NCBI RefSeq assembly: GCF_965363235.1
Contig: NC_134850.1
Span: 38,250,602-38,314,601 of the forward strand
DNA length: 64,000 bases
Reading direction: 5' to 3'
From: Mytilus galloprovincialis
Lineage: Eukaryota; Mollusca; Bivalvia; Mytilida; Mytilidae
Below are positions 64 to 54,500 of this stretch, piece by piece. Positions within the stretch are counted from its first letter, which is position 1. Each line of letters begins with the position of its first letter. The translations under genes and the position numbers were made by a program. Below the pieces are notes generated by a model. It was not told the DNA's origin. It did no database searches and was given only the letters and a program-made list of their open reading frames with translations.

Positions 64-273
64 GTTGTTTTGAGGATGTTATTTTATCAGTCTTACCTGC
101 AGATGCCAGATGCAAAATTCTTCCTTCTTGTTTAGGCATTGATTGTTGTTTAGGTGTAGATTTCTTACAGCACAAATTCAAGGCTTCATTTGAACTGGAT
201 ACATGCAATCACCAGTTAAATTTACAGATAGACAGATATCAGAAGACACTCAATTTGACAGATTATACATATG
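64..273 (+). CDS. Module 1, exon A
   Basis: First exon seen. Acceptor TTTCAG at 58-63; the first two bases complete a codon begun upstream, so at least one exon precedes it. Six cysteines including CC and LDTC. The usual GIEK is replaced by QIDRYQ. Sequon NLT. Ends in YTYG at a phase-1 donor. Confidence 0.9.
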
Positions 274-27200: not shown

Positions 27201-27510
27201 GTATTACATCAACCATTCAAATTATTTATTAAAAAAGGAAAAACATTTTTAAATGAAATTTGATATAGTCAAATAAAAACAGCTGTGCTACTGGTCAATT
27301 CGATCATCTTAAAATGTTTGATATTACAGGTATACCATAGAAGATCTTCCTAATCTAGAAAGGATTGTTCTGAATTTAACATTCAGCTTTTGCATAGAAT
27401 CAAATAGGTCATGTGAATTTGTAACAACTCTCCTGAAAGATATGGTGTTTCCCAAACCTCTGTGCCAAGTGGATACAGTTTTCCAGACCAAAGGTAAAAT
27501 AAGGATGATA

Positions 27511-27541
<31 letters not shown>

Positions 27542-30500
27542 AACTGATTTAAGATAACAGGCTTATAATTTTGTATGCCATGTCTAGTCTATAGCTACAA
27601 AAGACTCATCAATAATGCTGGAATACATATAAATATATAATCTTGTTAAAGTACTAATAATTGTTTCTATTGGCTTCTCAGTGTCCTTTTAAAAAGGTTT
27701 AATGTATTTATATTTTGAAATTATTAAGGAAAAAAGAGATGTAGAATACCAATGGGATATTCAAAGTAGAAAATAAACTGACAACGCCATGGTAAAAAAG
27801 AAAAGACAATTTTAAACTGCAAACAACGGTACACAAAACATAACATAGAAAAACCACAAAATGAACAAACTTATTTTAGATCGTCTTGAATATGCATTTA
27901 ATATTTAATTAGCCTCTTGATGTTAAGCATCATCCTCCGGCAAAGTTCAGATGGTCATAGACCTCATCTTTATCTCTTTGTTTTCAGATTTCTCTTTAGA
28001 ACAGTGGAATAGAGAAAGAAAACTGACATCAGATGCCATCTTACCTGAACATTATGTATCTGAACTTCTTGAACAAACAGGGTTGTCAAGATACATTACT
28101 AATGATACTTGTAATATGGCCATGCATGGAGTGGATGGCAATGGTTGGATAAAAGGTAGGGCACTATTTCAAATAGGAATATTTATTTCACCTTGGTTCA
28201 TTTATATCTGTGGTTTTTTTTTTTTTTTTTTTTTTTTTGGGGGGGGGGGGGGTGGTAACCCTATGTTACTGACTTAATATCTAAACTTCCAAGGATTATC
28301 ACTACCTTTTTGATATACAAAATATAGTACATTGATCATAACATTCTATATATCCTATCTATGAAAATTTTCAGAAATTGGTCACTGTCATATATGCTTA
28401 GATTGTTCCAGTCACAAAATAATGCTACTCCTATCAAGACAAGAGTGCACACACTGAAATGTCTCGCCTTCTATACTAATCATTGATATTATGTTGATAG
28501 TCCTAAGTATAAAGCTAAGCTTTATAACAACTGTCACATAAACTTAACATTAACCAAGATAACTAAACATAGACCAATGAACCTTGAAAATGAGGTCAAG
28601 GTCAAATGAACCATGCCAGGCAGACATGTACAGCTAACAATGCTTCTATACAACATATATAGTTGACCTATTACTTATAGTTTAAGAAAAATAGACCAAA
28701 ACACAAAACTTAACACTGTGCAATGAACCGTGAAAATGAGGTCACGGTCAAATAAAACCTGTGCGACTGACATAAAGATCATAAAATATTTCCATACACC
28801 AAATATAGTTGACCTATGGCATATAGTATTAGATAAAAAGACCAAAACTCAAAAACTTAACTTTGACCACTGAACCATGAAAATGAGGTCAAGGTCACAT
28901 GACATCTGCCCACTAGACATGTACACCTTACAATCGTTCCATACAACAAATATAGTAGACCTATTGCATATAGTATGAGAAAAACAGACCAAAACACAAA
29001 AATTTAACTTTGACCACTGAACCATGAAAATGAGGTCAAGGTCACATGACATCTGCCCGCTAGACATGTATACCTTACAATCGTTCCATACAACAAATAT
29101 AGTAGACCTATTGCATATAGTATGAGAAAAACAGACCAAAACACAAAAATTTAACTATAACCACTGAACCATGATAATGAGGTCAAGGTCAGATGACACC
29201 TGCCAGTTGGACATGTACACCTTACAGTCCTTCCATACACTGAATATACTAGCCCTATTGCTTATAGTATCTGAGATATGGACTTGACCACCAAAACTTA
29301 ACCTTGTTCACTGATCCATGAAATGAGGTTGAGGTCAAGTGAAAACTGTCTGACAGACATGAGGACCTTGCAAGGTACGCACATATCAAATATAGTTATC
29401 CTATTACTTGATTACTTATAATAAGAGAGAATTCAACATTGCAAAAAATTTGAACTTTTTTTTCAAGTGGTCACTGAACCATGAAAATGAGGTCAAGGAC
29501 ATTGGACATGTGACTGACGGAAACTTCGTAACATGAGGCATCTATATACAAAGTATGAAGCATCCAGGTCTTCCACCTTCTAAAATAAAAAGCTTTTAAG
29601 AAGTTAGCTAACACTGCCGCCGCCGCCGGATCACTATCCCTATGTCGAGCTTTCTGCAACAAAAGTTGCAGACTCGACAAAAAGCATATAACTTTTGCAA
29701 GGTGCAGGAATATAGTATCTGTTCTAAAAATATAAATGATGTCATTATTAAAGCCATCTTTAAAAAGTGGGAGTTATCTCCCATTGTCCAGAATTTTAGT
29801 TGAATTAACTTCAGCCACTGCTTTATTCAATGCAATATTTATTTATTTGACTTCCTACTGATAATTTAAACCAAGCTTTACCTTTCAGTGCTTACAAGCA
29901 CTTTGATTTACCTTTACTGTGGAAACTAAGAGTTCTGTAAAGTAATACTAAGTGGAATGTCATTATATAGATTTTAGTGTCAGAGATTAAAAAAAACTAT
30001 AAAAAACTGTTTTAATCTTCTTACTGGACATATTCAATGATGGAACTTAGTAAATTGAAAAAAAATATTTCTGTGTTTAACCTGATAAACTTTAAAACAA
30101 TTATATTATTTTGTAGATTGTATTGAAGATACAGTTCTACCAAATATTACATCATATCCACTTGTTTGCCAACTGAAAAGTAGCTGCACAGAAATATCTT
30201 GCTGTTTGAATCTGGAGTCCATTAGGAAAACCATTGAAGTGTATCTAGGACTTAACCAGGATTTACAACTACTTGAGATTAGAATTGGAGAGCATACCTT
30301 TTTGGATTCCTTTCTGGGATTTAATTTTGGTATATTATTAAGGGGATATAAGATCTAGAGAAGGGGACAATCAAAGACCACACATCTTTTAGTTTTATAA
30401 ATAGATAAAACCATGGTAAAAAAATAAGAAAGGCAGATAGAAAAACAATCTGATACTCATCGCATATAAAAATAAGGTCATAATTCAGTGATGCCACATT

Positions 30501-33500
30501 TCTATAAAAGAGAACAGGATTAAAATTATGATTCAATTCTTTTTAGATATAACATGCATTCCTTCAAAAAAAGGAATATTGCAGAGAGACAGCAACTTAA
30601 CATTTAAAAATGTTTACAATATTGCCTCTTTTATTATGTCTGTTTTATGCCAGTGAATTTTTTTTTTTAAATTATCTACTTTTGTTCAGCATATTGAAAA
30701 GACTAATGGATAATATTTATCTTTTTTTCAGGTGCTGATCATGAATTGAGATTGTTTAATGTGTTCAGATTAAAGTATGTTTGATTTACATCATTTTTGC
30801 TTGAATTTCAATTCTTAAAAACAATAGTCTTGTATTGAAAACTGTTTTGGACTATACAAAAATAAGGAGATGGTTGTCAACAAGACAACTCTTCTACAGA
30901 AACAAAAGAAATATTTTTTACCTGAAGTAGCAGTTAAGGGATATTTGAACAGTTTCTGAAATGATGTGTTCCCCTTTCTCATTTCATTTTCATTTTATGT
31001 GTTAAAGCAATAGTTTCTAATTTGCTAAAATTTCTTTCTTACAAGAAAAATGTTAAAGGGGTATTTAGACAGTTTCTGAAATGATTTTTACCATCCATCT
31101 CTTTTTTTTAATTCTTTTTTTTTTTAATACATATATTTGATATTAATTGAAAATAAATCAATTCATGTGTAAAATGTTCATTTTTTCCCCCAGATACAAC
31201 ACATATGACTTACTAAGTTCAAATGAATACTTGGTAACATTAGAATTGTCTGTTTGTTGGGAAAGTTACAAACCATGTGCTTGGAATACTTTTATACTAA
31301 AGAGTACAAGACTACCTAAACAACTAAGACATTTGCAGAATGATTTCCGAATTGCAGGTAGGCAATTCAGTGAATTAATTTTTAAAAGTTAACAACAAAA
31401 AATTCCTAGATTAAGTAAAAGTTCAAAAGATTTAACCATATGAGTATATTAGAATGTGTTTCTAAAATAAAGAATTAAAAGGAGAAAACAAATTGATCCA
31501 TGTATTTGTTCTTTTGATTTCCTTTTGATAAGTTCATTTACTACTGTCAAATATATCTGATATTATAAAGCTGATTTACGCTCGTCTTTTTACAAGGCAA
31601 TGGTTGTATAAATGAACCTTTTGAATCAGTGACTGTTAAAGCCATTAAGCACACATTGATTCAATTTGGAAAGGCATCAATTTGAGAAAAGATAAAAATG
31701 TCTTGTATAATAATTTGTGAAATAAAAGACATGTCTACTGTTGTTTAGAGATATATTGTTTCTTTTGCAGATTTTGACCTTTCAGATTGGGAGTATGAAA
31801 GAAGTATTAATTCTAGAAATTTAAGTAGTCTTGAACTTCTGAAATTAAACAATGATTTGGACATTGCCAGGTATTTCTCAAATGAATGTAAAAGCAACAC
31901 AGTACACTCAGACAGCTGGAAATCTAGTATGTATAAACATATTCTTTTTTCTTTTATTGCATAGAGTTTGCTGTTTTTTTTTTTTTATTGTAAAGCATTT
32001 TTATTCATTGAAACTATAGCAGTCTTTGATTTATTCTGTAGTAAAAAAATAATATTTGTAATAATAGGCATTAAGATTTTATGTCAAATAATACTATATG
32101 ATGGTCTGTTAAGATACTTAAAACTGAAATGCCTGTAATGCCAATCTGTGACAAAATAAGCAATATTTTTAGAATGTTTGGCATCTATCAGTTTACCAGC
32201 ACTTCCATCAACAACAATATGCCATCTGGGTGACACATGCAGTAACATCAACTGTTGCGTTGAAGTTCCTGTTCTTCAGAGATCTTTTAACATGTTTCTG
32301 GATCTGGATGCTTGTAACCTAAAGTTCACTGTTGGAATAGAAAAACTACGCTTTGTCCAGATGCTTTTTGGCTATCAATGGGGAAGGAACAAGTCTTTTT
32401 GGCTAAATGGAATTTTAAGACTCAAGTAAGTAAATACGCTAGGTTAAGTTACTGTCTACTTAAATAACAGCTTCGCATTACACATTCAATTAATTTAAAT
32501 CAACATAAAATTTTATCTTTATCTGCATTTTGTATTTCATGTCCCTTTTTAAATGTTAACAGCTTTGTTCTATTCTTTGGGATTATGTTTGTAGATTTAA
32601 TTTTAGACATTTAAACATAACTTCTTTTCTAATAGAAAAAAAAAAACAGAGAGAGCCAATTAATTACAATTTGTATTTATATAAATTCTCAATTGAACAT
32701 CATATATATCAAAGTTTTATTTATTTATTTCAGCTATCAAATAAATTATTTACACTTTGCTAAGAAGTATAGATTATCAGTAACACTTGAAGTTTGTATG
32801 TCATCAAGAGAACCATGTTTACAACATATAACACTACTTGACAATGTTGACCTGCCCAAAGAAAAATGTGATTGGAGACAAAATTATACAATACCAAGTA
32901 AGTATACATTCTTGTATCATACTATGATTAAAATGTATTAAGACCATAAAGAAGAAACAAGATCCCATTTTGTGATTTGCCTATTAAAGTTAATATAAGT
33001 ATTAGTAGAATTCAATCATAATCCCATACTTTACTTATTAATTAATGCACAGATGAACATGATCATGCTCAGCATTTAACAAAAAATCCTGTCAAAAAGG
33101 TAATGGGGCCATCTCAGAATTGCATCTAGGTGAGAGTTTTTGTTCCATGTTAAAGAGCTCACTGTGACTTTAGGATGAAGAACAGCAATAACAGGGTTGT
33201 TCCTTTGCTTTATCTTTTTTATGTGCCCATAGTGATTTTGATTATGAATAAAATAAAAACCCATTTTTTTTCTTTTTCCTTTTTTACATGAATTGTTTTT
33301 AGTGAAGTGAAAAACTGTCATGCTTAATATAAACTTAACATTTGAAAGATATTGATATGTCATATGTGGGTCAGTATCCCTCAAATCAAAAGAACACCAT
33401 GATCAGGACATGTCACAATTTTATACTTCAATTTATTGATGATCTTCATCTCAAATTTAAGTTTTGCATCTACTCTAATGTGCAAACTTACATATTTTTT

Positions 33501-36500
33501 TTATGATTTTAGGTTTTGCATACAATGACTGGAGAAACTCCAAGCTTAATCATCATGATATTTCTGAACAAGAGCTTGCATTGCACCTACTTGAGGAAAC
33601 AAGTATAGGACTTTATATGAAAGAGAGTTCATGTCCAAAACACTTTGAAGATAACATCTTAATGTCAGGTATGTAATTGTGTATGGAATATAGAAGGTTT
33701 GGTCAATTCAGATTTAGCCAGCATAATGTATGATTGCCTACAATATTAGTGTTTACTATGTTTTACATTCTTGGCAAACATCTCTCCATCTGTCACATAT
33801 CAGGTTAAATTGTTGTCCAAACATCATTTGTGGTCCCCTTAACTTGAAACTTGGTGTACAAGTTCATGATGATTAATTTTCTATTTTTTCAATATTTGGA
33901 AAATCGTACCCAGATATTAGTTAGAACAACCGAAAGGTGCAAACAGATATTTCTGATCAGAGATCATTTGTGGTAACTTCAGCTTCCCAGATATAAAGTC
34001 AAAACAATAACTGGTAAGAATAACCCTAAATATGCAAACAGATATTGCTAATTGCAAAACTATAAAAACACAGAAATGATGAAAATTAAAAAAAATGAAT
34101 AAAACAAAAATTGCATATTATTATATAGAAACAACAACCAACAGTTATGTGACAAATGGGAATTCCCTTAAAATTGGCACATGTTTAGTTTAAACCAATA
34201 TTTTGACAAGTAAATTACTTCATATCAAACATCCAGTTTATCATGAACATCATGTTAAGGAGGGGTATTTGCAAAAAATTCCAGTCAAGAGAATGTTAAA
34301 TTTCACGAGCCGTAAGGTGAGGGAAATTTATTCTCAAGACTGGTATTTTTCGCAAATACCCCTCAAGAATATGCTATATCTGTTTAATTACACTGAATGT
34401 TAATGTTCAAAAATGCATTGATGATCCTGACATTACAAGCGTCCAGTCGGATAGAGTATTTTTGGCAAAAACCACGGCAGAGAGTGTAAAAAAGGCATAT
34501 CCTTTTAGCATATACCCTGGTGGCATTAAAAAATGAATGATATTCATTTGGTTACAGTAAATTGGTGGGAAATACACTGGCTATCAACCAATCAAAACCC
34601 AGGATTCTTACATAAAGTGTAATTATATCAGCAAACATATTTTCGAGAAATTGTTTTATCCACCCAACAATTGTGAATTGCCAATATTACCATTTTTAGA
34701 CAAACTGTATATTCTCAAGACCATATCTAAATACAATTGACAAAGTCATGATATGCCTCTGACATAAACTACAAGAAAAAAAAAACCATACAAGTCATAT
34801 CTAAGATGAAAACAAAATTTAGATAAAACATTTATTTGCAGTATTTCTACATTATATATTTTCAATTTTGACTTTATATACTCTTTTGATCATGACCATG
34901 CATATATGTTACAGATTGTCCAAAGATTATGAACATAGACCCATTAGATGGACCTGTTAGATGCTATATCAATGGTCATTGTAGTTCTATAGACTGTTGT
35001 GTCTATGATGAGAAGATACTGACAAGCCTCAATGTATTCATTAATATTGATTCCTGTAATGATGTTTTAGAAGTCGGAATTGAAAATTATAAATTTTCAA
35101 AATCTCTTCTTGAATTTGATTGGAGTAAGTATTTTTAGCTCACCTGGCCCAAAGGGCCAAGTGAGCTTTTCCCATCACTTGGCGTCCGTCGTCCGTCGTC
35201 CGTCGTCTGTCGTCCGTCGTTGTCCGGCGTCGTTAACTTTTACAAAAATCTTCTTCTCTGAAACTACTGGGCCAAATTACACCAAACTTGACCAAAATCA
35301 TCATTGGGGTATCTAGTTTAAAAAATGTGTCCGGTGACCCGGCCAACCATCCAAGATGGCCGCCATGGCTAAAAATAGAACATAGGGGTAAAATGCAGTT
35401 TTTGGCTTATAACTCAAAAACCAAAGCATTTAGAGCAAATCTGACAAGGGTTAAACTTGTGTAACAGGTCAAGATCTATCTGCCCTGAAATTTTCAGATA
35501 AATCGGATAACCTGTTGTTGGGTTGCTGCCCCTGAATTAGTAATTTTAAGGAAATTTTGCTGTGTTTGGTTATTATCTTGAATATTATTATAGATAGAGA
35601 TAAACTGTAAACAGCAATAATGTTCAGCAAAGTAATATTTACAAATAAGTCAACATGACCGAAATGGTCAGTTGACCCCTTTAGGAGTTATTGCCCTTTA
35701 TAGTCAATTTTTAACCATTTTTCGTAAATCTTAGTAATCTTTTACAAAAATCTTCTCCTCTGAAACTACTTGGCCAAATCAATCCAAACTTGGCCACAAC
35801 CATCTTTGGGGTATGTAGTTTGAAAAATGTGTCCAGTGACCCAGCCATCCAATCAAGATGGCCGCCATGGCTAAAAATAGAACCTTGGGTAAAATGCAGT
35901 TTTTGGCTTATAACTCAAAAACCAAAGCATTTAGAGTAAATCTGACATGAGGTAAATTTGTTTATCAGGTCAAGATCTACCTGCCCTGAAATTTTCAGAT
36001 GAATTGGACAACCCGGTTTTGGGTTGCTGCCCCAGAATAAGTAATTTTAATGAAATTTTGCTGTTTTTGGTTATTATCTTGAATATTATTATAGATAGAG
36101 ACAAACTGTAAACAGCAATAATGTTCAGTAAAAAAAGATTTACAAATAAGTCAACATGACCAAAATGGTCAGTTGACCCCTTTAGGAGTTATTGCCCTTA
36201 ATAGTCAATTTTTAACCATTTTTCGTAAATCTTAGTAATCTTTTACATCTTCTCCTCTGAAACTACTTGGCCAAATTACACCAAACTTGGCCAAAATCAT
36301 CATTGGGGTATCTTGTTTAAAAAATATGTCCGGTGACCCGGCCAACCATCCAAGATGGCCGCCATGGCTAAAAATAGAACATAGGGGGTAAAATGCAGTT
36401 TTTGGCTTATAACTCAAAAACCAAAGCATTTAGAGCAAATCTGACAAGGGGTAAAATTGTGTAACAGGTCAAGATCTATCTGCCTTGAAATTTTCAGATA

Positions 36501-39500
36501 AATCGGATAACCTGTTGTTGGGTTGCTGCCCCTGAATTAGTAATTTTAAGGAAATTTTGCTGTTTTTGGTTATTATCTTGAATATTGTTATAGATAGAGA
36601 TAACTTGTAAACAGCAATAATGTTCAGCTAAATAAGATCTAGAAATAAGTCAACATGACCAAAATCGTCAGTTGACCCCTTAAGGAGTTGTTGCCCATTT
36701 TATTCAATTTTTAACAATTTTCACTAATTTGGTAAATTTTTGTAAATTTTTACAAAATATTTTTCACTGTATCTAAAGGTCCAAGTTTATTATAGATAGA
36801 GAAAATTCTAAGTACCAAGAATGTTCAGTAAAGTAAGATCTACAAACACATCACTATCAGCAAAACACAATTTTGTCATGAATCCATCTGTGTCCTTTGT
36901 TTAATATGCACATAGACCAAGGTGAGCGACACGGGCTCTTTAGAGCCTCTAGTTTAGGTATACCGGTAAATCTTGTTAACATAAAGATTTATGTGTTTTG
37001 ATTTCATATCGTAATTTGAAAAAACTGAATAATAAAGATTTTTTTCCACTAACCAAATCATTCACAAAATCAGTTGTGTCTGTTTGCTTCTATCCATAGT
37101 TTCAATTCTTCATCAAGCATTCTTTTCACAAACAACGTGCAGAGCACATACACAATGATTTCTAACTAAGGTCACATCCAGGTTCCAAATGCAGTTGAAA
37201 TTATTGAAATTATTGTACAATAAGATAATGTTTCAAATTACACCAACTAAATCATATTTAAGGCTGCTTTAAATGATTTTTTGAAATATTATGAATTTTA
37301 ACTTCTTTCTTTATAGAAACACAGCATCAAATTTATCTTGGAGGAATATATAGACTTCAGTAAGTTGTCCTTAAGTTAACAAGAGTATTTTTTAATTTAA
37401 TTTCATTTTTTTTTTTTAGCTCACCTGGCCTAAAAGGCCTAGTGAGCTTTTCTCATCACTTGGCGTCCGGCGTCCATCGTCTGTCGTCCGTCGTCGTCGT
37501 TAACTTTTACAAAAATCTTCTCCTCTGAAACTACTGGCCCAAATTAAACCAAACTTGGCCACAATCATCATTGGGGTATCTAGTTTAAAAAAAGTGTCCA
37601 GTGACCCGGCCAACCATCCAAGATGGCCGCCATGGCTAAAAATAGAACATAGGGGTAAAATGCAGTTTTTGGCTTATAACTCAAAAACCAAAGCATTTAG
37701 AGCAAATCTGACATGGGGTAGAATTGTTAAATAGGTGAAGATCTATCTGCCCTGAAATTTTCAGATGAATCGGATAACCCGTTGTTGGGTTGCTGCCCCT
37801 GAATTAGTAATTTTAAGGAAATTTTGCTGTTTTTGGTTATTATCTTGAATATTATTATAGATAGAGATAAACAGTAAACAGCAATAATGTTCAGCAAAGT
37901 AAGATTTACAAATAAGTCAACATGACTGAAATGGTCAGTTGACCCCTTTAGGAGTTATTGCCCTTTATAGTCAATTTTTAACCATTTTTCGTAAATCTTA
38001 GTAATATTTTACAAAAATCTTCTCCTCTGAAACTACTGGGCTAAATTAATCCAAACTTGGCCACAATCATCTTTTGGGTTAGTAGTTTGAAAAATGTGTC
38101 CGGTGACCCGGCCATCAAACCAAGATGGCCGCCATGGCTAAAAATAGAACATGGGGTAAAATGCAGTTTTTGGCTTATAACTCAAAACCCAAAGCATTTG
38201 GAGCAAATCTGACATGGGGTAAAATTGTTTATCAGTTCAAGATCTATCTGCCCTGAAATTTTCAGATGAATCGGACAACCCATTGTTGGGTTGCTGGCCC
38301 TGAATTAGTAATTTTAAGGAAATTTTGCTCTTTTTGTTTATTATTTTGAATATTATTATAGATAGAGATAAACTATAAACAGCAATAATGTTCACCAAAG
38401 TAAGATTTACAAATAAGTCAACATGACTGAAATGGTCAGTTGACCCCTTTAGGAGTTATTGCCCTTTATAGTCAATTTTTAACCATTTTTCGTAAATCTT
38501 AGTAATCTTTTACAAAAATCTTCTCCTCTGAAACTACTTGGCCAAATTAATCCAAACTTGGCCATAATCATCTTTTGGGTTAGTAGTTTAAAAACTGTGT
38601 CCGGTGACCCGGCCATCTAACCAAGATGGCCGCCATGGCTAAAAATAGAACATGGGGTAAAATGCAGTTTTTGCCTTATAACTCAAAAGCCAAAGCATTT
38701 AGAGCAAATCTGACATGGGGTAAAATTGTTTATCAGGTCAACATTTATCTGCTCTGAAATTTTTAGATGAATCGGACAACCCGTTGTTGGGTTGCTGACC
38801 CTGAATTGTTAGTTTTAAGGAAATTTTGCTGTTTTTAGCTCACCTGGCCCAAAGGGCCAAGTGAGCTTTTCTCAGCACTTGGCGTCCGGCGTCCGTCGTC
38901 CGTCGTCTGTCGTCCATCGTCTGTCGTCCGTCGTCGTCTGGCGTCGTTAACTTTTACAAAAATCTTCTCCTCTGAAACTACTGGGCCAAATTATACCAAA
39001 CTTGGCCACAATCATCATTGGGGTATCTAGTTTAAAAAATGTGTCCGGTGACCCGGCCAACCAACCAAGATGGCCACCACGGCTAAAAATAGAACATAGG
39101 GGTAAAATGCAGTTTTTGGCTTATAACTCCAAAAACCAAAGCATTTAGAGCAAATCTGACAGGAAGTAAAAATGTTGAACAGGTCACGATCTATCTGCCC
39201 TGGAATTTTCAGATGAATCGGATAATCGGTTGTAAGGTTGCTGCCCCTGAATTGGTAATTTTGAGGAAATTTTGCTGTTTTTTAACCGGATTTTTGTGAC
39301 AAAAATGTCGGTTATTGATTTGGGGATGTACGGCGGGCGGGCGGTCGGTCGGGCGGGCGGGCGGGCGGGCGGGCGGGCGTCACTCAAATGTTGTCCGTGC
39401 ATTAACTCATGAACCGTTCAACCAAAGCTTTTAACATTTTAATATGTTGTTACTGACAACTAAATGAAGGTCAAGTTCAATAATGGCGATTTTGACTTTT

Positions 39501-42500
39501 ACCGTTCAGGAGTTATGGTTCTTGAAAGATTGAAAAATGGAGTTTCCAGTCGTGTCTGTGCATTTACGCATGAACTGTTCTACCTAAGCTTCCCAAATTT
39601 TAATATGTTGTTACTGATGACAAAATGGAGGTCAAGTTCAATAATGACGATTTTGACTTTTACCGTTCAGGAGTTAAGGTTCTTGAAAGATTGAAAAATG
39701 GTGTTTCCAGTCGTGTCCATGCATTTACACATGAACTGTTTTACCAAAGCTTCCCAAATTTTAATATGTTGTTACTGATGACAAAATAGAGGTCAAGTTC
39801 AATAATGACGATTTTGACTTTTACCGTTCAGGAGTTATGGTTCTTGAAAAATTGAAAAATGGTGTTTCCAGTCGTGTCCGTGCATTTTCTCATGAATCAT
39901 TCAACCAAAGCTTTTGAAATTTTTATATGTTGTTACTGATGGCAAATTAGAGGTCAAGTTCAATAATGATGATTTTGACTTTTACCGTTCAGGAGTTATG
40001 GTTCTTGAAAGATTGTGAAATGGCGTTTCCATTCACGTTGTTGCATTTACTCATGAACCATTCAATCTAAGCTTTTCAAATTTTAAGATGTTGATACGGA
40101 TGACAAAATGGAGGTCAAATTTGATATTGACGATTTTCACTTTCACCATTCATCAATAATGGTTCTTGTGATATTGCCAGGACACAAATAAATATTAATA
40201 AATCCGGTTTGCTGTCGTTGTGACAGCCTCTTGTTTGTTATTATCTTGAATATTATTATAGATAGAGATAAACTGTAAACAGCAATAATGTACAGTAAAG
40301 TTAGAACTAAAAATAAGTCAGTATGACCAAAATAGTCAATTGACCCCCTAAGGAGTTATTGCCCTTCATAGTCAATTTTTAACAATTTTCTTAAAGTCAT
40401 AAGAAACCTCAAATAAAAAAAAAATAATGCATATGATTTTTATAACTCAATGGATAGTTTCATTATAAAACTTATGTACATATACTTTTTTCTGAAGAAA
40501 ATTCTTTAATTTATTCATATTTAGAAGAAGTTTACTTTATTTGAAGTTTACATATTTTCCGTATGCAAGGTGACCTCAGTGTGACCCATCTCGTAAAAAT
40601 CCGGTGACCACAATACGCATGGATGTCCTTAAAATAAACTATTATCTGAATTTACATGTTAAACACGTGCTCAATTTCCATGCTTTTTTGTTTATTTTTC
40701 GTCAATTGTTGACAAACAGGTGACAATCGTTAAACTTCGGCTTCAAAACACGAACTTTAATTACCTGCCATATTTTCACAACAACACTGACCGATTGAGA
40801 AAAAAAATTGACAATTATACGAAATTTACACGAAAAAAATGATAAATTCGAGCACAGAAGACGAAGTTTAGGATGTTTGTATGCATTAGTTCAAGAATTG
40901 GAAGAACATTATTTTTCACCGGTCACTCGTTTCTTATGACTTTAAAATTTGAAGATTTTCAATAACATTTTCCACAGAAAGTACTATTATAGATAGAGAT
41001 AATTGTAAGCAGCAAGAATGTTTAGTAAAGTAAGATCTACAAACACATCACCATCACCAAAACACAATTTTGTCATGAATCCATCTGTGTCCATTGTTTA
41101 ATATTCACATAGACCAAGGTGAGCGACACAGGCTCTTTAGAGCCTCTAGTTGGTCATTATCTTGAATATTATTATTGATAGAGATAAACTGTAAACAACA
41201 ATAATGTTCAGCAAAGTAAGATTTACAAATAAGTCAACATGACCGAAATGGTCAATTGACCCCCTTAGGAGTTATTGTTCTTTATAGTCAATTTTTAACA
41301 ATTTTAACATTTTCCACTGAAACTAATGGGCCAAGTTCATTATAGATAGAGATAATTTTAAGCAGCAAGAATGTTCAGTAAAGTAAGATGTACAAACACA
41401 TCACCATCACCAAAACACAATTTTGTCATGAATCGATCTGCTTCCTTTAATATTCACATAGACCAAGGTGAGCGACACAGGCTCTTTAGAGCCTCTAGTT
41501 TTAAATTTTGTAAGTAAGGTCAAAAGCAGTAAATTTAACAGTCTTCATCATACAGTAAAAGATTTGTATGTTATAACAGATGCATGTATTATCTTCCTTC
41601 ATGTTACAGACTTGTTTAAAATGCATTAATTGAACAAATTTGTAAATTCATTCACAATATTCTAAAGGCATGTATTAAAATATATAACTTTATATTTTTC
41701 TGAAGTTTTCAACTTGAAGAATTACCTAGAAGTAACAACTATATTATCAGTATGAATATAAGCATATGTTGGGATTCTGAAGCCACATGTGATTACAGGA
41801 TTACAGTCCTTGAAAACAGTATTTTAGCAAAAGAATATTGTGATTGGAGAAGGCCATTCCTAAAACCAGGTATTTGAGTTAAAGGTGTCTTACATTTATG
41901 ACAGCTTTTGTATGAGCTCTATGAACTTTTGTTTTGAAGACCTTGCCTTCTGTCAAATGCTATTGAATTAAGATAAGTTCAATAAAATAGCTCCCAAACT
42001 GGGTTTGTAATTCTTACCTGTACAAGTTGAAGGTAGCCCCTAATCTTGAATTATTTTTAATTTGCCTAGCCTAAGTACATGGAATCTCACTAAGAATGAA
42101 TTATTTTATAATTTGTATTTAAATGATTCTTTTTTGATTTTTTTGAAGATTTCTCTTTGACCAAATGGGAAGCTGAAAATGGATATCCTGCAAATACACC
42201 TTTACATGGACAAGCATTGACAGATTTACTGGAAGATATTGGTGTTTCCAAATATTATGAGAGTAAACAATGTAATACAAGCAGCCGTCCTGATTTTGCA
42301 CTAACAGTTGATAGATGGAGTTTTGGTAAGGATTTATTCATCTATACAGTGAATTGATTATGTAAAGTATTTTGTTTACCACCACATAATTATTGGTGAT
42401 AATGTATCCTTTAAATCTGTATGTATGATGACAATGATGTGGTCCCAACAAATCATAAAATCTGTATGTCATTGTGTTATTCTTAGGGTTAAATGATGAA

Positions 42501-45500
42501 AGAAAGAGTGGTTAGGACAGAAAAGTCATGAAAAAAATTAATATGTTTTTGAATACACAAGCTACAAAAACCACTGATTTTCCCTTACAAATAATATTTT
42601 GCATAATAAAATTTATTTCAAACAATAGACAAAAAAACAAGGCCCTTATGACAAGGTTTACTTGTCAATGGTGTTCTATTATAGTTATGTTTTCCCACAA
42701 CTTTTCAGCGTGCCCTCATAAAGTCAGCTTGGTTTTACCACTCCCAGACAACATTGTTTGCAGCCTTTCTGAAACATGTACCAGTGTGGATTGTTGTATG
42801 GATGTGGAGCTGCTGAACAAATCATTCCACATTTACTTGGACATTGATCCTTGTTATCATAGACTTACAGTTGGTATTGAACAGATGCAGTTTAACAGAA
42901 GTCTGCAAGACTATAGTTGGGGTATGGAAAAATATTGACAATGACTGAGAACAAGTCAAACTTATTCAAGTTTTCTGTATTGGCTACAAAATCAATGTAA
43001 TTCTTCTGTTAAAACAAATTATTTGTTATTTTGTTTATAGAGAAGCATAAATCAGTAGGTTCGAACCTGTGGTTCTTGTAGCTAATTTCCCAATGCTTGT
43101 AGAGAAACTTTGGTTTGCCTTCTTGGTCTCTTTATATTTAGTCATTATGCATTATGCATTGTATACATTAAGAATGACATTTACAAACAAAGATAGTCAC
43201 AGTTGAACCTGTATATATTATTTTCTTAAATTTATTTGAATGCAATTACAATTGTACAATATACAAACAAAGCAAGCTAGCTAGCCAGAGTCTTACTGTA
43301 CATGCATTTGGAAATAAGCTCTAACATGTACAATACTCTACCCTAATTCTAACAAACTATTACCAACTATAATCCTTCCATGAATAACTGTATGTTTATG
43401 AATTGCTTTGTTTCCTGAATTGCATTTTCAAGAAACTCTTTTACGATATTGTTTTTATAATTTAATGATATCCTGTTTAAAAACAGAACCAATGTAGTTA
43501 TTTGAAAACAAATATCTAGTTTAATATTTTGTAGGTACAGTCTTAGAAGTATCATTACTTGGAGTTATAAACATGAAGTAGGTATTCCTATTAGACAAAA
43601 CTTATGAATTAAACATGTTGAAGATGGTGGTAACTTTAATTTCCATTTATTTAAACACATTGTTTATGCATTGTAAACATTTCACAACAAACAAATATGA
43701 TGAAATAGGAAGATTTGCTTTTTTTTTAAAATAATTTCTGCCTTGCATCTGTTTACACTTCATGCAACAGAACAGGGTTTTATTTTGCAGGGATTATCTT
43801 CTCATCTTAAAATATCTAAAAAAGAAGCATATTCTGAAAAAGAAGCAATTATTGTCCTAGTTGCAGTTTATATTTATTATGTAAAGAATTAACATGTCTT
43901 TTAACAAATGTAAATGATCATACATTATTCTAAATATCTTCTTTTACAGTTTTACAATAGATGATTTGCCCGATGATAAGATGTTTATAGTCAGTATGAA
44001 TGTGTCAGTTTGTTTTGATGCTAACAGTACTTGTGAAGATGACATAGTGAATGTTCTGAACAGTGCCCTACTACCCAAACAGCAGTGTAAATATTCAGAG
44101 GATTTTAATGTAGAAGGTAAGATTATAATTGCTCACAGGATGAATAACTGAATATTGCATGTAAATTTTTGATGCCCTTCCTGCAGTAGTGGAATGTAAT
44201 TGTTAGAGCATTTTAATCTATATTTCATTGAAACATGGCAATCTTATTTGGATATAGCAAGAACTTTTTATCACTAGGTTTAAAATCAAAATGTTCAGGT
44301 CAAATAGCTTGATGCTGGTGACTGTACCTTAGCTTTACCTAAACAATATTTTTTATAATTGTATAAATAAACCAATTTTTCAGTATTTGTTTAAATTGAC
44401 CATGGTTTTTATTAAAAGCTGATTTAGCTTTTACTGTATTCAGTAAGTTTATAAGGGCATAGAAAATTCAAACTTAAACTTATAAATCTTCTTATTTTTT
44501 TACAAGACTTTTCTTTGACCAAGTGGATGTCAATTAGAGATATAGATGACTTAAAAGAGTACATGTTGTACCAAGTGTTTGAGGAGCTAGATGCATCATC
44601 TTTCTTGAATGACTATTCCTGTGATAGATCAAAAGAACCATGGGGACCAACAAATGATGGCTGGATAAGAGGTAAATCGATCATCAGTATTAGCTGTTTT
44701 ATCATTTCTTTTATCTCAAAGAATTTTTGTTTAAAAATTACAAAAAAAACAATTGTACCCTGTCAATGTTTAGTAAAATATGATCAAGAACTGTGACAAT
44801 TACACTGAAACAAAATCATGGTGCTAGGATTTGAGTTTGGATTTCTCTTTTAAAAAAAATCATCAAGCAAACATTATCATTAAGCTATTTAGACATTTTT
44901 AGAGGGACTATTAAAGTATACATGTATTTTCATTTGCTGATGATTTTATCACTCAAATGTTAGTATCATATCCTTCAAAATTCATAACATAGTTTATTGC
45001 AAGATATCCACATTAGCACATTATTGTTTCAAAGATTAAATGTTCATTAAAGATACCATTTTATTTTCAGAATGCCCGAAGTATTTATCACTTCCATACA
45101 TAAGCAATAGGGAGACTACATGTATAATCATGGATACATGTACAGGAATAAAGTGTTGTGTGGAAGTATTGTCTCTTGGAAGGTCATTTGTATTCTCCTT
45201 TGAACTTGATGCATGCAACTTCCAGTTAACCATTCATATAGAGAAGTTTGTCTACAATGAAACGCTTGTTAATTATGTCTATGGTAAGAAATACAGCAGA
45301 AAATTATAAATGTTGAGTTACATGAAATAAATTAAGTGATGGACTTATATCCTATACATATCATTATATATCATACAAATAATTTTATACATGCAGTTAT
45401 TTGGACATGTCCCCTGGCTGTTACTGTGCATTAAAAATGTTGTTGAATACATATTATTTATTTATATTATTGTATAGAGGGTTATTTTTTAGTGTGTAAA

Positions 45501-48500
45501 ACTTCACGATTTTCATTATAAAATAAGGTAACAAAATATTTTTGTGGTTTTTATTTTTGTGTAATCAAAACGTTTATCTATACCTTTGCATGTACACTTT
45601 TAATTTGGAAGAATTTATTTTGGCAATTTTATTCTATCTCTGAAAATAAGCGAAAAATTTACACCCGGTGAAAAGAATACGCTTATAATGCGGTATTTTT
45701 TACTCAGATTTCATTAAGTTCAAACCTTTGACAGTTGGTAACAATTGTGCATAGAACACTAGAAGTTCAGGAATTCATATGATAGGTTTGGGTTTAGATG
45801 GTTGATGATTTGATAGATAGATATAGTTGTGGAAGGAGTAATTGTATGGAACACTTTAATTTGAAAAATACAAGCCTATTCAGATTCCAGGAAAAATAAA
45901 ATACAAATATAGCCTTTGTATGAGGGTGATACAAGGATATATTGACCTGAAAGAAGTATATTGACGGAGGACGAAGTGTGAGGTCGATATAATTTTTGGG
46001 TTGATATATATTCTGTATTGACATACAAAGGCTGTATTTGTTATATTATTAATTTCCAACCTTACTGATTTGTATTAAAATCATAATTTGATTTTGTGGA
46101 AATTTTATAAATATCATATTGTCTCCTTGACATTATCAACAAATTATTTGTTATTCAATTTACTTTTTTTGTTTGTTTGACAATTTATGACGTAATAATG
46201 TATTTGAAGATTTTTTTCGTCAAATAATCGATCACAGATATCATTTGTTTCAAAACGTTTAACAATATCAATTACATGACGTCACAAAGTATATCTGCTT
46301 TTTAGATTTTCCAAAAATAACCGTGCAATATGCTTTTTGCTATCTGCCATTTTCTCTCTACCTTCAAAAATATAGTTTGACATGTGACTATCCCTAAACA
46401 TATCAAATTTGTTTAAATATACGAATTAATAATATTATGTGATGTTTTTAGAATGGTATATGCAGAGTTGATTATCTGGTATTTACATTTTCTATTTTCA
46501 GGGACTCATCATCAGTTTTATTTGAAAGGAATTTTCTTAATTGAGTAAGTTAATATATTCACTTATAACAAAATTTTACTTTACAAAATTAAATGCAAGG
46601 ACAATTTGATAAAAAAAAATACATTCATACTAATATGAACAATAAGCTTTATTAGAACCTGCTGAGGCTGACTTTTAATCATGATATTTTTTTCACATAA
46701 TGTATTTACAACCAATAGAAGTCTAATCAAATATATGACAGTCTTCCACAAGCTAATATTATAAAAAAAAGTATAGTTACCAATGAGAAACTCTCCACCA
46801 GTGAGCAAATGATTTAGAAAGTTCGCAATGTTACTATATGTCTCTGTAATACCTTAAACAATGAGCAAGAACCCATACTGCATAGCAAGCTATAAGAGAC
46901 CCTAAAATGGCAAATATGAAACAATTCAAATGAGAAAGCTGGCTTGATTTATGTAAATAAAAATGGGATAACAACTGACAACCACTGAATTGCAAGCTCC
47001 TGACTTGGGATAGGCACATACAGAATATGGCAGGGCTAAGATTTTTTTTATATTTCTTATTAACCTTAGCAGTCAACTACTTCCTCATCCAGTTGCAGGG
47101 CTACAGCCACCTCATAGAAACTTATTGACATAAATTCATATTATTAGTTTTGTAGATGCCTATGCAATAACCCACCATAATCTGAAAGATTCATTGAACA
47201 AGATTGAATTTTACATGTGTAAATTCAGTTTTAAGATATTAAGTATCCCTAATAACATATAACTTGGGGGGGGGGGGGTGGGGGGGGGGAGGAGGGGATA
47301 TGAAGCTGCAACTAAAGTAGATTGTGCTGCTAAAGTTGTGTTTCAAGGACTTTTCCTTATTATCCTCTTTCATTTTAAACTTCTTGAACTCTGTTTTTAT
47401 TTTTGGTGAATAACACCAGTAAAGAAACTTTTCTTGTTTTTTTCTCAAGTCATTTAGTAGGTATAATATTTAGCATATTAAATCTGGTCATGTTTTGTAG
47501 GTACACTGTTGATGAGTTGTCATCTTCAGAATATATAATATCTCTAAGCCTTGGTGTATGCTTAGAGTCCTCAGAACCCCATTGTATGACAAAACAACTT
47601 ATAGCAGACAAAGTCAGTCTACCTAAACCATCTTGTGATTGGAATCAAGGATATAGAATTCAAAGTAAGTAATACAAGTTGTGTAGCTTAATGATTTGTA
47701 AAAGTATCCTTTTTTCGTCATTTACAGAAGTAACTCAAAAATGAAAACTGATGATCCATTCAAAACAATTTTTTTAAGCCTGAAGAGGATAATTTTATTA
47801 AATCTTTTCAATTTGTACTGCAGATTTTTCCTTACAAGATTGGGCAACAACAAGAGGCCAAGAATTTACAAATCTCACAGAACTAGCAGTTTTACAAGTT
47901 TCAAGTGACCTTGGGATATCTAAGTTTTTCAAGACACCTTCATGTGTTAGAAATGGAATATTTTATCAACCAGAAATCTTTGGTTGGAAAAGAGGTAAAA
48001 CATAACTGTAAAATTAGTTCTATAAATTTTAAGAACTTATAAGTGGCCAAATTATGAATATGTATGTATGTGTTACATACATATCAATTTAGTTTATGGA
48101 AACCAATTTGTTTTCATAATAGTTTTATGTACACAACTGTTTGGAAAATAATGCAAATATTAATTATCAACAAAAAGTCAAATTAGGATCTTACCTCATA
48201 TCAACAAAGCTGGAAAATGTTAAGAAATTAAAGCTGGAAAGAACAGACAAAAAAAGAATATTTAAAAGTAATCCCACAGTAGAAAATACTATGTTTTGTT
48301 TACATTGTTTATTTTTTTTTAATTGCAAAATTGTTTTAATTGACAAAATGTTCGTTTTGTTATGCATATTGGTTTATAAATGGACAAATTATCATATTGA
48401 GTTTGATTTACACAGAAAATTTACGTTCTTTTCTGTCAATAATTTATTTAAAAAAATTGAATACTGTTTATTTTCATAGTTCATCATATTATTTGTTTTC

Positions 48501-51500
48501 AGATTGTCCTGTAACAACAAAACTTCCTGAACTTCAGCCAGGAATGACATGTGTCTTATTGCCTTCCTGTACTGAGGTTGACTGCTGTATAGATGTTGAA
48601 ATAGTTCATCACTCCTTTAATGTTATCTTAAAACTGAATCCCTGTGATGAAAACCTAATTGTTGGCATTGAAAATTTTATTTTTCCAATATCTCTATATG
48701 AGTTTGATTGGGGTAAGTCAGCTATGAAGAAATATGAAGGACACAAAATGTAGTTATCATTGGTTTAATATCTGATGATTAATTAACCCATATGAAGATT
48801 TTTTTAAATCAAGACCTTGTAAGCATCTCAATTTTTATCAAAATATGTGACTAAAGTTTATCATAGCTTATACTGGATAATTGTGACCTATAAGCTAAGA
48901 ATGCAGTTAATGAAAAGTTAGCTTAAAACGTTTTATTTTTTGGTCGTTTTTATTAGTAGTCCTATAATAAAAGGAGATAAAATGGAAGACAGTTCTTTCT
49001 TACATGAAATCAATCCCAGTACATGTACTTCAAAATGGATTGCATACAGTTTTATGAATATGTTATGAACTGTATACAAACCAAGGAAGATGTTCTTACA
49101 CCAGTATGATTATAAATTTACATTCACATACACTTTGAAATTTGTAACTAAAATTTGTTTTTATTCTATGAGTAATTTCTTATTTTATTTTTTATTTTAG
49201 GAGTCAGAAAGAAACTTTATTTAAATAATGTTATTCGTATAGAGTAAGTATGTTAATGGAATCCTTCTAAGACGTTCCTTTTTGATAGTATTTTCTTATC
49301 TCTGCAAAAATTGTAAATAAAAAAAGCTGAATTTCCTTGTCCTTATTCTTGGCTTTAATTCAAAGCTATTAGTTGAAAATATACCAATTTTCTAACATAT
49401 GATCAACTATAAAAAAAATTAATTTAAATATGAGTAGCTTTGAAAAGTTTATATTTCAATTAAAATAGCCTTCTTTAAAAGTTATTAAATGTTGTAAAAA
49501 AGATGAAATTGCTCAGATGTTTCCCAATTACAATGGATTACAAAACATAATTAACAAACAGATACCTGTGGTTTTATTCAGTTTTAAACATATTAAACAC
49601 AAATAAGAGGATGTTGCATGGTTGACAATGAGTCATCTCTCCAACAGAGACCAAATGATGTAGAAGTTAACAACTATAGGTCACCGTACAGCCTTCAACA
49701 ATGGTCCAAACCTATATTGTATTGGCAATCATACCACATCTTCTTTTTATGCCCCACCTACGATAGTAGAGGGGCATTATGTTTTCTGGTCTGTGCGTCC
49801 GTTCGTTCGTCCGTTCGTTCGTCCGTTCGTTCGTTCGTCCGTCTGTCCCGCTTCAGGTTAAAGTTTTTGGTCAAGGTAGTTTTTGATGAAGTTGAAGTCC
49901 AATCGACTTCAAACTTGGTACACATGTTCCCTGTGATATGATCTTCCTAATTTTAATGCCAAATTAGAGATTTTACCCCAATTTCACGGTCCACTGAACA
50001 TAGAAAATGATAGTGCGAGTGGGGCATTCGTGTACTGAGGACACATTCTTGTTTATATTGTAAACAATTCAAACAAGAAAACTAAAGGTTGTATATAACT
50101 GAAATACAAGTACCATATCTTTTTTTCATTTTTAGTTATTCTGTATATGACCTGAAGAGTGATAGTAGTTACTTGGTAGATATGAATGTAAGTGTATGCT
50201 TTGAATTTTCCAAGCCATGTTTGATTGACCAAGTAGTCCTGAATAAAACTAAGCTGTCAAAGAAACCATGCAAGTGGCAGACTGGGTTTAAAAATTCAAG
50301 TAAGTTTATATCATTATATCTGTTTTTGAAACATTTTGTTATTTATAAACAGTAGATTAAAACCAATTAGCCTGAAGGTTCATTATTTCTAGGACATACT
50401 GAAGATTTACACTTCTATATGCATATTCATTATGCTTGGTCAAAGATTTTCTGACTCTAGCATCTAGGATGATTATATTCAGTACATTATTGTTTTACCT
50501 AGAGATAATATTTATTCCATTTGGAACTTATATTATGAGGAACTTATATTTCATGACAATTGAAACAAAAAACCTAAACAAGCTTTTTATCTGGTAGCAT
50601 TATTAACAAAATGTTTAAAAAAATGTTCAGTAATTAAATAATTCCTATTTATAGGTTTTAGTTTATCCTCATGGAAGAATTCATCTGATGTTGATCCATC
50701 ACAACCATTAAATCAGTTGGAGATAAGACAGCTTGAAGAAACTCTTGGAATAGCTCCTTTCCTGTTGGACAATGCCTGTCAAAGATTTAACTCTCCTTAT
50801 ATTCCTCAAACTGATGGATGGAGAACAGGTTTGCTATATTTTATTACTCCTTCTTTTTACTCCCCACCTAGGGCATTCATTCATTTGTTCGTAAGTCTAT
50901 CCTCTCAGTCTCCTGCTTCGGGTTATAAATTTTGGTCAGGGTAGTTTCTTATGAAGTTGAAGTCCAATCAAAATGAAATTTAGAACACATGTTCCTTATG
51001 GTATGAACTTTCTAATTTTAATGACAAATTAGTTTTGACCCTAATTCCACAGTCCACTGAACATAGAAAATGATAATGTGAGTGTGGCATCCATGTTCTA
51101 TGAACACATTCTTGTTTAATGTAAAATGATTTTAAAAGACTGCATTGTATTTATATAGTTAAATTATTGTTCAGTTAATAATAGATTAAGTTATTTGTAA
51201 ATAGGTACCAACCCTTTGGGTTATAAAATGATGTTCTTTATGATTTTTTTTTATAGACTGTTCACAAGGGATCAGGAATTTACCATCACTCCTGAGTAAT
51301 ATGAACTGTTACATAGATCAGTCCTGCACAGCAGTCCAGTGTTGTATTGATGTCAATGAACTAGGACAATCTATAGAGATTGGAGTTGAGATTGATCCAT
51401 GTGACTTCAGGTTGACAGTCAGAATAGAGAAATTGAGTTTTGATGTTACATTGTATGATTATGTGTGGGGTAAGATTTCTTAAAAAATAAATTTTTTATA

Positions 51501-54500
51501 CAAACTAAATGACTATCCGGAATATTTAGAAAATTAACTCATGTGTAAACACTTCAATCAGAGAATTGGATATGAAAATATATAAATGAAATTGACCTCT
51601 CACAGATTTGCTGGACAAAAAAGATCCTACACTGTAAAAAAAATTGTCACATTATATTTTTTCAGGAAAACAAGAATATTTAGATCTCTATGGAGTCATT
51701 CAGATTTCGTAAGTTTGTTATACAGCAAGACTATCATACACCTTATCGCTATTAGCCTTATCGGCCGGCCGACCCGGCCGCTTGAACTTTTGACGCATAC
51801 AACAATCACTTTTCCATTGTGGCGTCAGATATTTTGTTTTATGACGTCAAAATTTTACGGGAACCTGTGTGATATCCAGTAATGGCGGACAAATAGCGAT
51901 AAGGTGTATTTGCACCCAAACCACCCCATCCCCACCCAACCTGTATATTCTGCTTATTTAGTCAATCAGTGGGATTCAAATATGTATTTCCTGTTTAGCT
52001 TTTGATTAGTGCTTTTGGAAAGGAAAAGAAAGGGCAACAGATTTAAGAATTATTTATTATATTCATAAAATATTGTAGTTAAAATATCCTTTTCTGCTTA
52101 CTAGTCATGTTTAACTTTTTATTTACTAAACTAAAAAGTGTTCATGTTCCTATTCAGCAATTTTACTTGACTTCTTTAACTTTATATTATTATTTTTTTT
52201 AGGAATATGTGAATTTTTGGTATACAGTTATTAATCTTTATTTCAGATTTGTAATTAGAAACTTATATGAGGAAAAATTCTATTTGATTAGCCTAAATTC
52301 AGCAGTTAGTTTTGATGCGAGAAGAGAAGAGGAATACAGCATTATACTAGAGAACAACCTACTACCAAAGACAGTCTGTGATTGGTCATCTGATTTCTAT
52401 ATTCAAAGTATATATACCGGCCTTTTTAAAAATTGTATACTGAGTATTCATTATTATTTGATGGATACCAATTTTTGAGGACTTTGTGGTAACCTTGGAA
52501 CCACAAATTCTAATAACCAACGAAGTACAAATCTTCTATATGAATTTATGCTGACTTTGGCAAAACCCTGAAATCAAATATCCACAAAAATGCGAGTTTT
52601 TTCTAAACCAATGAAAAATTGGTATCCACAATAAAATAAACGAAACCAAAGTAAACTAAATAGAGCTATTAAAAAATATCTGCTGTTGACAATCACTTAA
52701 ATTAAAATTTGTTGAATTTGAGTTTTTTAGTGATCTTGATTTAACAGAATTTCATTAAAAGATAATAAAAGACAAGTTTTCTATTGTTAATGGAATGGAT
52801 AAAGGATTATGTAAAAATTCTTGGGAAATCTCTAGAAAATCAAAGGAATGTGCTGTTATTGCTGTTCATTAACTCAGAGTTACTGTCAGCTAAAGCTCAC
52901 AATTTAACTGTAAGTTCAAGACAATCCCTAGCACCTACTGAAGCATAGATTTTTGTAAAATCACACTACATTTGTATAGAAATAGTAAGATTTGGTATGA
53001 TTGATAATGAGATAACTTTGCATCAAAGAACACAGATATAAATAATATCAACAAATTGGAGACTATTATGGACAATTTTATAAATGCTAACATATAACAT
53101 TATTTAAAATTTGCCTGACATTTGTATAAAGCTTTCTAATACTTTTTTATTATCTGTATAAGATAGTGTCAGTAAGATATACTTTTGTTTTTACAAGATA
53201 CAGCATTCAGTTATCTTTCATATGTGTTTATTTCAGAATTCTCATTGACAAACTGGTTACAAAAGAAAAACTTAAGGATTGAGGATTCAATTCCAAGTAA
53301 TATTTTATACCAGTTGTACGAGGAAACAAATATAGGTCATTACTTTCTGGATAACAAGTGTTCTAGACTGGTCTATCCTTTCGATAATAGTTGGACTAAA
53401 GGTACAGTTATCTTTAGACAGATATATAATTCAAATATCACAACCATGAGAAAAAAGAGTACTTTTGCTGACCATAAATTATTAACAATATTGGCTCAAT
53501 GTGAGTTTTGCAAAATTAACTCAATCTACTTTCATTTGGCATGATTGTCAGTCAAAATTTGCTGGCGGATAGATATTATTAATTGCTTATTTTCCTCACC
53601 AATAAAATTATATTTATGTATTGAAAGTTGAATTAATCATACCAAAATGCATATATACATAAACAGAATTTAATTAAAACTTTTTACGGTTAAATTTTGT
53701 TTCGAATTCGTTCTTGTGAGCACGCAGACGGCTTATTTAAATCTTGAGACCAACCTTTCATTTCATTTTTATTTTAAAACAAAACATGATTTGTAACATG
53801 AAATCTAAAAATCAATGTAAAATTTTTTTTTTTTATACATTTATAATGTTGTATGTTGTAGATTGTGCTATGAACATAACTTTCCCGATGTTACCACCAG
53901 ATGTGTCCTGCTTTATCACAGATACATGCACAGGGGTTCAGTGTTGTGTTATGAATACTTTATTACAACAGACATTTGAAATCTCATTTCTATTGGACAG
54001 CTGTAACAAGAGAATAAGTATCAGTATAGAGAAAATACAATATAATAACACATTATTGGATTTCAAATTTGGTAAGATGTAAATAGTATGTGAAAAAGTA
54101 TCAAGTTTAAATATTGTTCATGAATTACTTCCCCTTTTTAAAAAAGATGTTGCTAGTCATACTTTTGAGCTTGCCACTCAATGCATATAATACATAAAGA
54201 TGTTTCCAAACAAACATAGTGAAAATCAAGCCATTTTGTTAGTCTTGTACAAGTTCATATATTTATACCACACTTACATGTCCTAAGTATGTTGTAATTA
54301 TTTCCCCTGGAAGTTAAAAAGCCATCCATTCACCTATCCATCTATACATTACTCCCTCCCTTCATTGATCTATCCATCCAATTTGTTTCTAAATTCTTTA
54401 CTGGACACAAACAATACAAAAGATAACTCATGAGGAAGATACTATATGCAAAAAAGATAAGTTCTGCAAACATATCTTTGTAAATGAGGAAAAAGGAGAT

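Follow-up and report, generated by a model that had tools for sequence, protein, structure and literature searches.

Why the cysteines of a repeated protein module should disappear two at a time is the question raised by a 64,000-nucleotide stretch of the Mytilus galloprovincialis genome (contig NC_134850.1, positions 38,250,602 to 38,314,601; hereafter the window), which carries on its + strand a part of a giant modular gene. The module is about 200 residues long and is coded by four exons, A, b, B, and C, of which the window holds 20, 20, 20, and 19 copies, respectively. An ordinary module has 10 cysteines, six in exon A, arranged as C-x14-C-x5-C-x4-CC-x18-C, none in exon b, three in exon B, and one in exon C; this number is found in 17 of the 19 complete modules. 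The two exceptions have eight each: module 11 lacks A-Cys6 and B-Cys3 (leaving five cysteines in A and two in B), and module 17 lacks B-Cys1 and B-Cys2, with B-Cys3 retained as the only cysteine of its exon B. An odd total is found in none of the 19 modules. Followed through the duplicates of the gene within the same genome, the paired losses likely reflect disulfide bonds, in the case of both pairs.

These numbers were first given in a preliminary description of the window, which also proposed the two bonds and the folding of A, b, and B as one unit, and they agree with an exon-by-exon count in which splice-consistent exon borders were used wherever a donor was found. With four losses thrown randomly among the 19 × 10 cysteines, the probability of all modules being even is P = 0.0067. 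The modules, together with the exons of particular concern, are located in the window as follows; position 30117 is the exact start of exon A11 and position 52407 the exact end of exon B17.

64..2057, + strand: module 1 (A, b, B, C), 10 Cys
2359..3988, + strand: module 2 (A and b fused, B, C), 10 Cys
4501..6050, + strand: module 3 (A and b fused, B, C), 10 Cys
6924..8500, + strand: module 4 (A and b fused, B, C), 10 Cys
8896..10725, + strand: module 5 (A and b fused, B, C), 10 Cys
11107..12697, + strand: module 6 (A and b fused, B, C), 10 Cys
13033..14536, + strand: module 7 (A and b fused, B, C), 10 Cys
14963..20980, + strand: module 8 (A and b fused, B, C), 10 Cys
21779..26192, + strand: module 9 (A and b fused, B, C), 10 Cys
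26513..28155, + strand: module 10 (A and b fused, B, C), 10 Cys
30117..31926, + strand: module 11 (A, b, B, C), 8 Cys
30117..30329, + strand: exon A11, lacking A-Cys6
30732..30774, + strand: exon b11, zero Cys
31194..31357, + strand: exon B11, lacking B-Cys3
32173..33668, + strand: module 12 (A and b fused, B, C), 10 Cys
34915..42325, + strand: module 13 (A, b, B, C), 10 Cys
42709..44671, + strand: module 14 (A, b, B, C), 10 Cys
45071..47994, + strand: module 15 (A, b, B, C), 10 Cys
48503..50828, + strand: module 16 (A, b, B, C), 10 Cys
51257..53401, + strand: module 17 (A, b, B, C), 8 Cys
52247..52407, + strand: exon B17, lacking B-Cys1 and B-Cys2, B-Cys3 kept
53862..55887, + strand: module 18 (A, b, B, C), 10 Cys
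60865..62469, + strand: module 19 (A, b and B fused, C), 10 Cys, the source of the structure model
62866..63927, + strand: module 20 (A, b, B), its exon C lying past the window end (L185:1372)

Exon C is found at 33512 in module 12 and at 62307 in module 19. A tandem array of 166-bp units (10.6 copies, 94% matches) lies at 57814-59579, between modules 18 and 19.

On its contig, the window's gene starts at or before 38208903 and ends at or after 38332687; about 33 modules have been counted in it, some stretches being unread. The family is carried by at least 17 genes on five contigs of the same genome (contigs and loci are designated below by C and L numbers, respectively). An early A exon of the window's gene has 17 matches with E values of 1e-14 or less, no two of them in the same gene; for the A exon found furthest 5', which belongs to a module called N1, there are 17 with E ≤ 3e-11 and then two weak ones. 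Outside these genes there is a stray A match, at C7:9858651. Later reads at both ends of the gene, some of them weak profile matches, revealed the usual cysteines in eight A, eight B, and six C exons, the exception being exon A of N1. The last B-like exon found, weakly matched (L187:8023-8277), continues in frame into a stretch of basic residues, which we take to resemble a furin-type cleavage site. Minisatellites derived from pieces of the exons also occur, with 138-bp units from the first half of exon A in L081 and L047 (about ten copies in one open frame in the former), 80-bp units from the end of exon B in L038, and 144-bp units from exon B in L089.

The proposal that the members of each pair covary was followed among these paralogues, i.e., gene and module duplicates within one genome, and at all three module positions concerned, 11, 17, and an additional one called U, the cysteines are kept or lost together. 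With exon B of module 11 or of module 17, each of the 13 top matches falls in a gene of its own, the window's gene and 12 others being represented; no clear counterpart of either module was obtained for the four genes on C9 and C2. In module 17, B-Cys1 and B-Cys2 are absent and B-Cys3 is kept in 13 of the 13 genes. Module U (L083:6872), located in the same gene upstream of the window, also lacks B-Cys1 and B-Cys2, and the same state, with B-Cys3 kept, is found in all 12 genes in which this module was read, including those on C9 and C2 (two of the 11 counterparts, in the C7 31.3-Mb and C13 5.6-Mb genes, are weak matches with E values of 0.0012 and 0.0019, respectively). In a quick tree of 162 B exons, built with the cysteine columns removed, B-Cys1 and B-Cys2 each change twice and on the same two stems, that of module 17 (13 rows; Shimodaira–Hasegawa-like approximate likelihood ratio test, SH-aLRT, 94) and that of module U (12 rows and two partial copies; SH-aLRT 90). 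Modules 17 and U do not form one clade, and thus the double losses are two separate events; the chance of the two sets of changes sharing both stems, weighted by branch length, is 3e-5. The three changes of B-Cys3 on the same tree include an artefact, since two partial copies from L089 end before this cysteine. Moreover, in the 160 B exons that extend over the positions, Cys1 is never missing without Cys2, nor Cys2 without Cys1. A bond between B-Cys1 and B-Cys2, as proposed in the preliminary description, is therefore well supported, and on the basis of the two separate double losses, the lack of single ones, and the position of the two residues at a predicted hairpin (see below), it very likely exists.

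The second pair was followed in exons A and B of module 11 in the same number of genes (13). The first seven best matches of exon A11 come from different genes; for the other six, the A match just before exon B11 was taken, that of the 5.6-Mb gene being weak (E 0.41). A-Cys6 and B-Cys3 are both absent from seven genes (the window's gene, those at 37.8, 38.8, and 39.4 Mb of C13, and those at 9.7, 24.3, and 31.4 Mb of C7), both present in six (at 5.6, 41.3, 41.7, 42.1, and 42.7 Mb of C13 and at 8.3 Mb of C1), and in no gene is only one of them found. On a tree of the 13 genes, in which the cysteine columns were kept, a single branch (ultrafast bootstrap 88) parts the six from the seven, so a single event, affecting both sites, divides the two states. 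Loss and gain are not distinguished by the tree, but loss is the simpler assumption, since Cys6 is present in every other full A exon. The proposed bond between A-Cys6 and B-Cys3 is thus favoured by co-occurrence in 13 of 13 genes, set against a single event on the tree, and judging from these sequence comparisons the two residues are likely to be bonded.

The paired losses could also have arisen by chance or as linked events without any bond, by replacement of a short stretch carrying B-Cys1 and B-Cys2 and by coincidental drift at the two sites of module 11. B-Cys1 and B-Cys2 are only seven residues apart in one exon, hence one local replacement could remove both, and modules 11, 17, and U have diverged in further columns as well. 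Yet the double loss occurred twice, on the same two stems, the frames remain open with B-Cys3 kept in all 25 exons concerned, and a single loss is absent from the 160 exons mentioned above. The exons carrying A-Cys6 and B-Cys3, in turn, are about 0.9 kb apart in the window, yet the two residues are both there or both missing in every one of the 13 genes, which makes coincidence improbable. A related possibility is that modules 11, 17, and U are decaying, the loss of cysteines being a mark of pseudo-modules; indeed, they lack residues that are otherwise nearly invariant. However, the same state is shared by seven, 13, and 12 genes, respectively, with open frames and the remaining cysteines intact, and the window copies have their splice signals in place, so decay is hardly credible.

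The disulfide reading was also confronted with a compiled set of the family's exons, with overlaps removed. This set is not random, as positions 11, 17, and U were deliberately sought and many of its rows are close relatives. Of 121 A hits, 97 are full with all six cysteines (in 17 of these Cys1 lies just outside the aligned range and was checked), seven lack only Cys6, and 17 are partial. Among the 178 B hits, all three cysteines are present in 128, Cys1 and Cys2 are missing from 25, only Cys3 is missing from seven, and 18 are partial. The cysteine of exon C is present in 64 of 67 hits, the other three being cut by the end of a locus. No hit in the set has an extra cysteine within the aligned range. 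Exon A of module N1 (L186:2302-2553; C13:38208903) has Tyr at Cys2 and Ala at Cys4, with Cys1, Cys3, Cys5, and Cys6 kept. This joint loss, seen in one module of one gene, suggests a bond between A-Cys2 and A-Cys4; matches of the N1 exon A lie in the other 16 genes and were not used as evidence.

The positions of the cysteines in the fold were derived from AlphaFold2 models. One model covers A and B jointly; it is based on module 19, with the intron read through in frame, and has a mean predicted local distance difference test score (pLDDT) of 67 and a predicted template modelling score of 0.56. Averaged by block, pLDDT reaches 85-92 in A (residues 11-60) and 78-89 in b and B (residues 171-220), but 61-72 where A begins and ends. 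The model contains an artificial linker, and its docking of A on B is not trustworthy. A second model, of A and b alone, agrees with the first on the five strands of A. B-Cys1 (residue 200) is predicted to close the strand 190-200 and B-Cys2 (residue 207) to lie two residues before the strand 209-220, so that they flank one hairpin, as expected for a cross-hairpin bond. A-Cys6 (residue 47) is placed in the turn between strands 36-45 and 50-55, while B-Cys3 (residue 224) is located four residues past the last strand, with lower confidence. The equivalents of A-Cys2 and A-Cys4, residues 16 and 27, are found in both models in strands 14-18 and 24-31 of one hairpin and, judging from its register, should face each other.

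Exon borders provide information on the extent of the folded unit. Intron phases, read from the splice dinucleotides, are 1 at the C|A, B|C, and A|b borders and 2 at b|B, so A-b-B is one symmetric 1-1 unit and C another, and symmetric phases at module borders are those looked for in a disulfide-bonded extracellular module. Exon b, devoid of cysteines in all 20 modules, is free in nine, joined to A in modules 2-10 and 12 (10 in all), and joined to B in module 19, which indicates repeated loss or gain of the introns flanking it. Moreover, the predicted strand 170-185 spans the b/B border. The phases and this strand make it plausible that A, b, and B form one folded unit, as the preliminary description had it; the unit is not closed, though, as it contains nine cysteines, and exon C should supply the missing partner. 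Conceivably, the cysteine of exon C pairs with Cys1 of the A exon of the next module across the C|A border.

The encoded protein is probably either secreted or exposed on the outside of the cell. N-glycosylation sequons exceed those in shuffled sequences in exon A (75 versus 49 ± 6) and in exon B (119 versus 65 ± 7), and in 75 exons of the compiled set a sequon occupies one fixed column of exon B, with the Asn two residues before the SVC motif. The above data also bear on the possibility that the cysteines bind a metal such as zinc, with whole sites lost as units and no disulfides formed. The CC pair and the even count would, as a matter of general knowledge, fit metal sites too. A zinc site usually requires four ligands, however, whereas the cysteines are lost in twos; besides, B-Cys1 and B-Cys2 flank one predicted hairpin, and the enrichment of sequons in A and B suits a secreted protein, which makes metal binding very improbable.

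Several observations weigh against the disulfide bonds or the extracellular location. Besides the closeness of B-Cys1 and B-Cys2 and the single evolutionary event behind the A-Cys6 to B-Cys3 bond, there is one extra cysteine in the module-U exon B of the C7 31.3-Mb gene (L182:229; C7, 31310.2 kb), near its start and before the aligned range; this module would total nine if its A and C exons, which were not found, were normal. Single losses occur in two of the 17 partial A copies, with Trp at Cys1 in one unit of the L081 minisatellite and Ser at Cys5 in a stub in L032. In N1, exon A contributes four cysteines and exon B three, and its C exon was not found with confidence. The joint model is weaker near B-Cys3 (block mean pLDDT 68), and the nine cysteines of A-b-B call for a further, putative bond to exon C. 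As for the location of the protein, sequons are not enriched in exon C (26 versus 35 ± 5.5 in shuffles), and no signal peptide has been identified, with no predictor run and the 5' end of the gene unresolved.

On the preferred explanation, the bonding of both pairs, A, b, and B would fold as one all-beta domain, with C as a separate part with one cysteine. The B-Cys1 to B-Cys2 disulfide would bridge one hairpin of B, and that between A-Cys6 and B-Cys3 would tie the A half to the B half over two exon borders. Selection on a bond may then lapse at one module position, whereupon both cysteines would be replaced and the module would stay in use with four bonds, a state subsequently inherited by duplicated genes.

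Domain and fold searches did not link the module to any known family. No convincing Pfam match was obtained for 57 exons of three alignments and 14 single stretches (best E 0.022, the bits displayed being under the cut-off), and exons A and B matched no PDB sequence below E 0.7, C not having been searched. Foldseek searches of PDB gave no match at E ≤ 0.001 (best E 0.6 for A+b and 0.45 for the long model), including none of significance to the ConA-like lectin, LamG, or pentraxin folds, and a fold search of predicted viral proteins with the first model gave no match at E ≤ 0.001 either. Lectin-like folds matched A+b weakly, at E 0.6 and above, which is no more than a lead.

The module resembles the class 1-1 modules of secreted proteins, such as EGF, sushi, and LamG, in its symmetric phase-1 borders, probable richness in disulfides, and occurrence in tandem copies; unlike them, it has no convincing Pfam match for A, B, or C and no PDB fold match below E 0.4. 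Variation of disulfides is reported for the ZP modules of nematodes, including a reshuffled bond (PMC7456536), and those modules likewise are cysteine-rich parts of extracellular proteins with bonds differing between paralogues. No ZP match was found, however, among the exons given to Pfam, and the extra cysteine in L182 is the only candidate for a reshuffled bond here. In the PhyloCys paper (PMC4498770), disulfide bonds are inferred from tandem cysteine mutations on trees; the logic of such correlated-mutation methods is the same, namely that bonded cysteines tend to be lost together, so that a bond is indicated where two of them disappear on one branch. The present sample, instead of a large set of homologues, consists of module and gene duplicates within a single genome, and the events in it are few. 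The logic of pairwise cysteine loss is thus already established, and what is new is the family and its disulfide map; no mussel or bivalve family or giant modular gene of this type was found in literature searches, as judged by titles and the openings of abstracts.

It is possible, albeit doubtful, that these genes represent an undescribed family of giant secreted proteins in which the duplicated genes preserve, position by position, the disulfide set of each module, with five bonds as a rule and four at U, 11, 17, and perhaps N1. The chain would then show an invariant arrangement of more rigid and more flexible modules, one bond linking each of them to exon C. For a large family of repeats unnamed in the libraries searched, the analysis yields a disulfide map that can be tested; it is drawn from gene and module duplicates only and could guide the expression of one module for work on structure and function. 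It also suggests that in this family exon borders cut through a single folded domain.

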